Below, piece after piece: positions 60,078 to 62,827 of a stretch of 64,000 nt of DNA. Position numbers and translations under genes: made by a program. The notes under the pieces were generated by a model that saw only the letters and a program-made list of their open reading frames with translations, did no database searches and was not told the origin of the DNA. The stretch comes from Punctularia strigosozonata HHB-11173 SS5 (Eukaryota > Basidiomycota > Agaricomycetes > Corticiales > Punctulariaceae), in assembly GCF_000264995.1 (NCBI RefSeq), contig NW_006767441.1:328255-392254 (forward strand), read 5' to 3'. Positions within the stretch are counted from its first letter, which is position 1. Each line of letters begins with the position of its first letter.

Positions 60078-61843
60078 ATGCTACTGCTAGGAGTGATCAT
60101 ACTGGAACTTGTTTTGGCTTCGACCTTCATACCGCGCGTTCATGCGCTGTCCGTGTACGCCGCCTGCCAGACGACACTGGGAAAAGCAGTTGATCCAGTT
60201 CTAGGATGTCCTAAAGGTAAACGCTGTGTGGTCGCCGGGTGACGTACTAGTAGTATTGACAGAAACTCAAAGGGACAATCTTCGTGTCACAGAAAGATCC
60301 TCGAGCGAAGTTCAGTAGCGTGCAGGCTGCCGTACTATCACTGTAAAGAATGGTGCGCGCCATATGCCGTGCAACGAACTTACTGTACTCCCAGGCCGTT
60401 GGACGATTCGCCTCAATGGATCCTCGTCGATGCTGGAATATACAAAGAGGCTGTAAACGTTACAAGAACCGGGCCAACGACCATGCTTGGCCAGACGAAT
60501 GTCGCAGATTCCTGCATGTAGACCCTCTGCTCCCCGCCGATCGTTGCTGACTATTGGGTAGACGAGCACAATCTTGTGACTATCTATAACACGACATTCA
60601 TCAATCAGACCACGCAGAATGCATCCATATTGGACAACGCGGACTCGCAGGTTCTTACTGGTAGGTGTGCCAGCCTCGCTCTCGTGAGAATCTGACTCGA
60701 GCCGATTGCAGTTGCGCCCAACAAATACTCCGTTTGGACAGGGCAAGGTTATTATGGAGCAACACCGCAACCAATTCCTGATGTATGACACAGACTAGAA
60801 TTATTGGAGACGTGTTAGCACTCAGCAATGCTTCTGTAGGAATGGGGTTGCAAGGACTTCCGCTCGTACAATATCAATTGGGAAAATCGCGCGGTAAGCA
60901 CGCGGTCCCTTCTGTTCTCGCCACAGAATGTCACGTCCGAAACAGGGCAACGCGTCCATTGGTCCCGCGCTGGCGGTCGGGGTCGGTTTTGCGAACGCCT
61001 CCTTCTACGGCAGCTCGTTCAAGTCGTGGCAGGATACCGTCTTCGTCGGAAAGAACGCGAGCGTGATCTTCAAAAAGAGCCTGGTTCTGGGTCAAACGTA
61101 CGCGGGTTCGGATAATGATGTGAAAACGCCTCGCTCACGGAGGATATTGTGTATAGTGATTATGTGTATGGTTTTGGTGAGGGCTGTCTCGGCTGGGGGT
61201 AATGCGCATTGTGGTGAGACTGACGCTTGTTCATAGGCACTGCCTACTTTCTGGAGTCCGTTTTGGGTTCAAGAGGAGCAGGGTGGTAAGCAAACCTATT
61301 CTGCACATTCAACCCGCCCTCACCAAGTGACATCCTCTAGCCTGACGGCTTTCAAGGGTCAGCGTCTCGATGCCTTGTCGTCCAAAAAGCCGACGATCTT
61401 TTTCAGGTACTCCCAACTACACAAACACATATGGCGTCTACTTTGAAAACTCCCGTGTGGTGCATTCCCCGGAGCTCTCTGCCGCCCAAGCTGCGAATTT
61501 TACCGGAACTCAATGTCTGGGACGCCCGTGGAACAACGCAACGACCGCGGTGTACATGAACGCACGTTCGCCGTTCATGTTGCTCGTATCCTCTCTTACG
61601 ATTTGTGATATATAGACCTATATGGACTCGTCGGTCCTTCCGGCCGGCTTCACCATCTGGTCTCCGACTGATCCAAGGAATGGCACCTTGCTGTTTTACG
61701 GCGAACACGGATCTTACGGTCCCGGATGGAATCGCAGTGCTCGAGCCACTTTCGACCATATCCTCACCGCACCACAGGCCCAAAGGTTCTCGTTACAGAA
61801 CGTATTTGGGAAGAACCCTGCCTGGCTTGATGACCTGTACTAA
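60078..61843 (+). CDS. Secreted pectin methylesterase (carbohydrate esterase family 8)
   Basis: Removes methyl esters from homogalacturonan in plant cell walls. The signal peptide is MLLLGVIILELVLASTFIPRVHA. After joining short exons, family blocks appear: FSSVQAAVLSL, VNVTRTGPTTMLGQTNV-like region, YNINWENRAG-NASIGPALAVGVGFANASFYG, KSWQDTVFVGK (the QDT motif with a catalytic Asp), DYVYGFGTAYF (second catalytic Asp) and CLGRPWNNATTAVYMN with the conserved Arg and Trp. The end is NPAWLDDLY. The intron 60894-60945 is needed to keep QDT in frame; reading through it would look like a frameshift. Last exons are near 61550-61843. Confidence 0.85.
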
Positions 61844-62135
61844 AGTACGCCGTGGCTGTATATCAATACATCCAGGATGAATGGAGCGACGCTAGCAATC
61901 CTGCTGCGGTCCTTTTCCCCTACAAGACAACGCTATAGATGCTGCTCAGCATCCTTGTCGTTCGAAAGACAAAGGTAGAAAGACAAAAATCCGACGCCAG
62001 CAGAATCTCTTCAAGAAACTGGTAGGCTTTGAACCTGCGTTACGGAATATCTTTCCAAGAAAATGTCAAGAGGGAACGAGGCGGATTCGCATCTCCGGCG
62101 AGGAATATCTTTACAGGAAAAGGTCAAAAAGGTAA

Positions 62136-62445
62136 GACGCTAGCAGGATTCGAACCTGCCTCACTCTTCAAGAGAACGTCAAAAAGCATGACCCTGTCAG
62201 GATTCGAACCTGCTCCACACGATATCTCTTCAAAATAGTACGACGCTGGCAGGATTCGAACCTGCCTCACTCTTCAAGAGAACGTCAAAAAGTATGACCC
62301 TGTCAGGATTCGAACCTGCCCCACACGATATCTCTTCAAAATAGTACGATGCTGGCAGGATTCGAACCTGCCCCACACGATAAAATAGTACGACACTGGC
62401 AGGATTCGAACCTGCCCCACTCTTCAAGAGAACATCAAAAGGTAC
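62136..62445 (-). repeat. Tandem array of tRNA-Ser 3'-end modules (B-box/T-arm repeats)
   Basis: Six head-to-tail copies start at 62136, 62190, 62242, 62296, 62348 and 62392, with spacings of 54, 52, 54, 52, 44 and then 54 bases to the intact tRNA-Ser. Each copy, read on the minus strand, is the T-arm and 3' end of tRNA-Ser (GGTTCGAATCC, the B box, with its GCAGG/CCTGC stem) followed by a short trailer with runs of T (usually TTTTT or TTTTG). Copies alternate between two trailer types, giving a dimer of about 105 bases. A more diverged copy is visible near 62020-62050. None carries the A box, D arm or anticodon. Confidence 0.9.
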
Positions 62446-62526
62446 GACGCTGGCAGGATTCGAACCTACGCCCGGAAACCGGAAGAGATTTCTAATCTCT
62501 CGCTATAACCACTCAGCCACAGCGCC
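62445..62526 (-). tRNA. tRNA-Ser (anticodon AGA)
   Basis: Minus-strand tRNA with a 7-bp acceptor stem (GGCGCTG pairing CAGCGTC with one G-U). The D arm is GGCTGAGTGGTTATAGC, the anticodon stem AGAGA/TCTCT with loop TTAGAAA (anticodon AGA, read as IGA), a long variable arm CCGGTTTCCGG typical of Ser, and a T arm TAGGTTCGAATCCTG. Discriminator base G. No intron. It reads serine UCU, UCC and UCA codons after inosine modification. Confidence 0.94.
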
Positions 62527-62827
62527 ATGCTGATGTCGAGCACTGTATAATATATTATTCTTTCGGAACAGAGTAATGGTTCAAACGTGGCTCATCCTTC
62601 GCTGGACCACTCGCGTGTTGAACGAGGAGTATATACCAAGCCAAGCCATGATACAACTAGCCTAAGCAACGTCGGGTCAAGGAGATCTTCAGGCGCAACC
62701 TCTTTACATGAAGCGATCTATGGTCATCACGGTAACGAACCATCGATTCTAGCGACTCGGCTTAGTAAACAGGCGTTCACCTGAACCAAGCCAGCCAAAC
62801 ATATCACTGCTCTTCGGCTACTATTGT
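62527..62827. other. Spacer between tRNA-Ser and the helicase gene
   Basis: Upstream flank of the tRNA and 3' untranslated region of the helicase. No further gene is seen. Confidence 0.4.

Follow-up and report, generated by a model that had tools for sequence, protein, structure and literature searches.

A tandem array of tRNA-Ser(AGA) 3' ends carrying B boxes, a putative TFIIIC cluster of local origin

On its 3' side, a complete tRNA-Ser(AGA) gene in Punctularia strigosozonata is followed by six clean copies, arranged head to tail, of a unit made up of its T arm, 3' acceptor strand and trailer, beyond which one well-supported and one weaker decayed copy carry the array to a far end at about 62019 (positions are those of the window, i.e., the whole 64,000-nucleotide stretch analysed, C9:328255-392254 of a 33.57 Mb genome in 32 contigs). 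An origin of this array by local tandem duplication is well supported, and we consider it rather likely that it arose in this way and forms a passive cluster of TFIIIC sites, any effect of which would be a side effect or weakly selected.

Results

The complete gene occupies 62444-62527 on the minus strand (ARAGORN; Rfam RF00005, 58 bits), has a good A box at 62519 and B box at 62466, and is the only tRNA that ARAGORN and Rfam find in the whole 64-kb window, in agreement with the original prediction of one complete tRNA-Ser alongside partial copies. Read along the tRNA strand, a unit runs from T arm through acceptor strand to trailer, beginning with the gene's own source-like unit (62469-62416, with a T4 run) and continuing on the same strand through copy 1 (62372-62415, 44 bp, T4), copy 2 (62320-62371, 52 bp, T4), copy 3 (62266-62319, 54 bp, T5), copy 4 (62214-62265, 52 bp, T4), copy 5 (62160-62213, 54 bp, T5) and copy 6 (62097-62159, T5), the last end of which was set by hand. 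Each of the six clean copies thus has the T-run that had been predicted for it. Scars of mobile elements were considered as an explanation and rejected, since the units abut with nothing in between. The two outermost copies, also on the minus strand, are decayed, namely copy 7 (62039-62096), whose B box is broken, and the weakest, copy 8 (62019-62038), which comprises a T arm and four acceptor letters.

Perfect T-arm cores (GGATTCGAACCTGC, plus strand) stand at 62146, 62200, 62252, 62306, 62358 and 62402, with one mismatch in the gene's own core at 62456 and two in the decayed core at 62025. Allowing up to two mismatches, this 14-base core occurs 8 times in the window versus 0.55 expected, and 8 was reached in none of 100 shuffles. 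TRF describes the array both with a period of 54 (6.6 copies, 72% match) and with a period of 106 (2.4 copies, 94% match), and no other tandem repeat of the window comes near it in strength, since each of the four remaining rows has a unit of 12 to 15 bases in about two copies. Outwards from the gene the B boxes are spaced by 54, 44, 52, 54, 52 and 54 bases, so that six fall in about 270 bp, or seven in about 320 bp when the gene's own is counted, and such crowding of B boxes into a few hundred bp is characteristic of the IR-type clusters of fission yeast. Near-regular copies 52-54 bases apart had been predicted; six clean copies are there, more with the decayed ones, but one spacing is 44.

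The trailers fall into three types, of which type A is common to the gene and copies 3 and 5, type B to copies 1 (with an 8-bp deletion), 2 and 4, and the longer type C to copies 6 and 7. Copies 2-3 and copies 4-5 are identical at 103 of 106 positions, which indicates that a 106-bp dimer was duplicated, copies 4 and 5 being the duplicate of the dimer 2-3, and this duplication accounts for the alternation of trailer types as originally proposed. A longer ancestral trailer seems to have given rise to types A and B by two deletions.

Comparison of the nine acceptor letters with those of Ser(AGA) gives 0 to 2 differences for copies 1, 2, 4 and 6 and three for copies 3 and 5, and Ser(CGA) is a worse fit, which bears out the earlier assignment of the units to the T arm, 3' end and trailer of the neighbouring tRNA-Ser(AGA). 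The T stem reads GTAGG in both Ser(AGA) genes found and GCAGG in all six clean copies as well as in two Ser(CGA) genes; the T shared by the Ser(AGA) genes is therefore younger than the array, or else the copies became uniform through later homogenisation. The second Ser(AGA) gene (C7:555284-555367) is an identical twin that has the first trailer bases in common with the gene studied here and is without an array. That two identical Ser(AGA) genes have a private GTAGG is a hint of gene conversion between them.

At the decayed end, the alignment of copy 7 to copy 6 (62044-62089) scores 39, where the best of 1000 shuffles scored 26; a profile scan of the far flank missed this copy, which was recovered by the alignment. 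The T-arm piece of copy 8 (62019-62038) has a score equalled by 1 of 1000 shuffles, and in the profile scan (nhmmer) it reached 8.9 bits with an E-value of 1.5, the best of 200 shuffles reaching 5.7. Copy 3 aligned to the far flank with a score that 18 of 1000 shuffles reached, which is not significant, and for this reason the end of the array is placed at 62019 and not at 62007. With 11 of 16 T-arm letters kept in copy 7 and 13 of 16 in copy 8, the far end of the array looks older than the near end, the copies decaying away from the gene.

When the six clean copies are compared, no change is seen in T-arm columns 1-16, against at least 11 in the 18 columns that follow; the 17th T-arm letter, in the T stem, varies among these copies, and the gene itself differs from them at one of the 16 letters. 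When the 11 changes, which occurred in related copies with a common history that are delimited by their own T arms, are placed at random, the probability that none falls in the 16-column block is 0.0009, and a permutation of columns, which we prefer, gives a run as long in 971 of 100000 cases (about 0.01). Counting all 17 letters, so that 1 of the 11 changes lies in half of the columns, gives about 0.006 by hand, and all of these counts omit decayed copies 7 and 8, whose T arms have changed and the first of which has lost its B box. Selection on the B boxes, that is on TFIIIC binding, is possible, and this pattern is a hint of it rather than proof.

The promoter parts were scored with A- and B-box weight matrices built from the tRNA genes of this genome (49 A boxes and 50 B boxes). 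All six clean copies have a B-box score of 16.4, equal to that of the gene; copy 8, whose B box fits GTTCRANNC, scores 8.8, just under the weakest gene B box. On the tRNA strand, the strand scored, no A-box score in the array exceeds 5, the A boxes of genes ranging from 6.5 to 18.3. The copies were originally described as B boxes without an A box, and that description agrees with these scores; six consensus B boxes standing outside a complete Pol III gene are also what one looks for in the sequence of an ETC site. That this fungus has TFIIIC rests mainly on the established knowledge of eukaryotes. The genome contains a match to the B-block_TFIIIC profile, at 37.1 bits against a cut-off of 22 and over positions 2-45 of the 73 in the profile, but this is a weak witness, as 4 of 14 prokaryote controls likewise score above that cut-off.

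The T-runs invite a further reading, in which they would be back-up Pol III terminators that catch polymerase reading past the T4 of the gene. Nine T-runs of at least four lie within 400 bp downstream of this gene, the highest number among 52 tRNA genes (the other 51 have 1 to 7, with a median of 2), and the later runs include T5. The idea that extra terminators are needed is weakened, however, by the gene's own first run, a T4 located three bases beyond the end called by ARAGORN, since T4 is the commonest kind of first run (34 of 52 genes), and by the C7 twin, which has a T4 at the matching place and then, within 120 bases, just a T5 about 100 bases on. The T-runs are also part of what was copied, so that their presence calls for no further explanation, and we regard a role as terminators as improbable.

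A source of small RNAs, with RNase Z cutting read-through transcripts into repeated 3' tRNA fragments, would make use of the T arm kept in every unit and of the fold of the read-through strand (z of −4.09, none of 100 shuffles as good). Such a fold score is nevertheless expected of palindromic repeats, the acceptor strand is among the varying parts, and the tRNA strand of the array yielded no A box, which leaves this reading very improbable.

Three B boxes in succession (GTTCRANNC, gaps of 30-60) are found in the whole genome only in this array, with 5 overlapping matches (reversed control 1), a result that is independent of the tRNA set. The exact T arm occurs six times in the array and twice elsewhere, both times in Ser(CGA) genes, and a DNA search of the genome with the whole array matched the array and the adjoining gene end only, although this search is blunt and overlooked the C7 twin and the Ser(CGA) genes carrying the T arm. 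Pairs of B boxes gave 8 genome matches with the strict motif (6 in the array, control 2) and 67 with the loose motif (6 in the array, control 56), which puts the pairs outside the array at roughly chance level. As an observation apart, a near-identical stretch of 72 bases with a B-box-like motif at both ends is present at four sites (C1:1047875, C1:1978246, C3:1501092 and C7:114607), from which it appears that the genome has a dispersed repeat with paired B-box-like motifs.

The tRNA set used here is an incomplete one of 52 distinct genes (51 loci, 54 gene calls with two repeats dropped), the RF00005 search having scored 63 of 644 first-look candidates. Up to 400 bp downstream, 48 of these genes have no B box, three have one and this Ser(AGA) gene has six, and two of the three with a single B box adjoin a second like tRNA gene. 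A general downstream B-box feature of tRNA genes was accordingly rejected on these 52 genes. Upstream, over the same distance, B-box motifs are found at four of the 52, including this Ser(AGA) gene. A tRNA-Gly(GCC) gene (C2:162094-162187) has two such motifs within 400 bp upstream. Close pairs of like genes (Gln, C3:1499005-1499233; Ala, C5:1396108-1396382) look like whole-gene tandem duplications, and introns are present in many tRNA genes of this genome.

SINEs are dispersed copies with a tRNA-like head that holds A and B boxes. A SINE-like family was rejected as the source of the array, since dispersed copies were not found in the genome, where the three-B-box cluster is seen only here, and an A box was not found on the tRNA strand of the array. 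It is true that tandem repeats are generally prone to misassembly, but the copies are unlike in sequence and length and decay outward, and the array covers about 320 bp in a 32-contig assembly. Taken as one alternative, an assembly artefact or a dispersed SINE-like family is hardly credible, given also that there is no second cluster in the genome and that the exact T arm recurs only in the two Ser(CGA) genes.

The array sits between the tRNA-Ser(AGA) gene and a convergent pectinesterase-like gene, whose putative last exons (61406-61843, plus strand) seem to end with a stop at 61843, about 175 bp from the far end of the array. The pectinesterase profile PF01095 is matched in two successive frames, at positions 187-231 (E-value 0.0024) and 232-294 (E-value 7.2e-5), both below the curated cut-off. 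Given the weak profile scores of these exons, the gene may be divergent or decaying. The near side has a DEAD-box helicase gene, which is on the minus strand, with ATP-synthase and Gtr1/RagA genes beyond. The neighbourhood of 10 kb was sampled through 10 of its 33 listed ORFs, which gave a family for four (V/A-type ATP-synthase, pectinesterase-like, DEAD-box helicase and Gtr1/RagA, ordinary genes on both sides) and none for six; no transposon family was found among these 10.

Discussion

The history that we propose starts from a step that can be read directly in the DNA, where the 3' part of the adjacent tRNA-Ser(AGA) gene recurs as a head-to-tail unit on its downstream side. Further steps are the duplication of the dimer and, probably, that of a monomer (copies 1 and 2, which have a trailer type in common), with the older, decayed copies outermost, and this combination of head-to-tail copies, one local source and stepwise duplication is that of a tandem duplication or minisatellite. 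Replication slippage or template switching may have driven the process, aided by the near-palindromic T arm and by a short G-rich match where the units join. Slippage would be favoured by the DNA fold of the strand of copies 3-4, which is better than that of most shuffles (z of −2.47; 4 of 200 as good).

With a perfect B box and no A box in the clean copies, TFIIIC can probably sit on the array via its B-box-binding part and without Pol III. The reported affinities of TFIIIC, nanomolar for the B box and micromolar for the A box (PMC12409998), lead to the same prediction. Any effect would then be that of a passive TFIIIC cluster, for example as a roadblock to convergent Pol II coming from the pectinesterase-like gene. 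It has been reported for Dictyostelium that a retroelement which homes in on Pol III complexes makes little use of a lone B box as a target (PMC5391098), which fits B boxes that are without Pol III.

The array could also be thought of as a neutral, minisatellite-like repeat that was seeded by the tRNA gene, binds nothing relevant and is unselected. We hold this to be a serious possibility at somewhat less than even chances, with odds that overlap those of the passive TFIIIC cluster, and a neutral repeat is at least as likely as a selected one. Partial copies downstream are found at 1 of the 52 tRNA genes of the incomplete set, i.e., this one, and their absence from the identical Ser(AGA) gene on C7 means that they are unneeded for tRNA-Ser expression in general; moreover, old copies decay, one having lost its B box, and simple duplication of a dimer explains the pattern. 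The contrast in the six copies between the 16 unchanged T-arm columns and the varying ones that follow argues against neutrality, however, and perfect B boxes are expected to bind TFIIIC whether this is relevant or not.

A selected TFIIIC boundary or roadblock, which would split the Pol II pectinesterase-like gene from the tRNA gene or bound a chromatin domain, draws its appeal from known systems. At the mating-type locus of fission yeast, the IR-L element has five B boxes within a 327-bp deletion, in a cluster that recruits TFIIIC (PMC4502379), and the density of B boxes in the array, which are kept in the clean copies, is close to it. The array resembles IR-L and IR-R as a compact B-box cluster, with TFIIIC recruitment being a feature of the IR elements and the likeness here one of sequence. 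Unlike the array, which consists of tRNA 3' ends among ordinary genes, IR-L and IR-R flank heterochromatin, and in what is available of that source they are not described as copies of a neighbouring tRNA gene (PMC4502379). The effect on the native IR-R element was mild when its B boxes alone were removed (PMC4502379), which speaks against a boundary here, as do the single cluster found in the genome, and so no general device, and the absence of a transposon family from the ORFs scanned, six of which gave no family at all.

The layout is also convergent in the manner of budding-yeast PCL5 and its tRNA gene, where transcription of PCL5 reads through once the B box of the convergent tRNA gene is mutated (PMC4228148). 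Between the stop of PCL5 and the 3' end of the tRNA gene there are about 150 bp (PMC4228148), comparable to the distance of the pectinesterase-like stop from the array, a parallel that makes a roadblock testable and no more. On balance a selected boundary or roadblock seems rather unlikely. Unlikely, too, and a shade more so, is a two-way barrier, in which the B boxes would block convergent Pol II, T-runs on the other strand would stop Pol III and selection would keep the B boxes; if true, copies of its own 3' end would have supplied a tRNA gene with an array for TFIIIC alone.

Several other systems bear on the passive TFIIIC cluster that we prefer. The ETC sites of budding yeast, of which eight have been counted (PMC12409998), have the B-box motif and are bound by TFIIIC without Pol III (PMC12409998, PMC4228148). 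B boxes outside a complete Pol III gene are common to both, the difference being that those described here are putative TFIIIC sites repeated in tandem and adjoining a complete tRNA gene. Extra B boxes downstream of a tRNA gene are known from the exB of Dictyostelium, located about 100 bp downstream of the internal B box at about 80% of tRNA genes (PMC5911963), whereas the six boxes described here belong to one of the 52 genes of the set, bring acceptor strand and trailer with them and are no genome-wide feature. The tRNA gene arrays of Entamoeba are tandem units with tRNA genes and short repeats (PMC2652664); nearly all of the tRNA genes are repeated there as whole genes, in contrast to the 3' part of one gene here. 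No report of tandem tRNA 3' halves beside a tRNA gene appeared among the literature matches listed, which consist of titles and the beginnings of abstracts.

Conclusions

What is available of the literature compared here states nothing on how B-box clusters of the ETC or IR kind arise. If neutral, the array would neatly illustrate how a local repeat can be seeded by a tRNA gene. If TFIIIC sits on it, the array would show how a cluster of this kind can arise by local copying of the end of a tRNA gene, and it would offer, beside an intact gene, a naturally occurring set of B boxes that lack A boxes, with an identical, array-free twin as the control.
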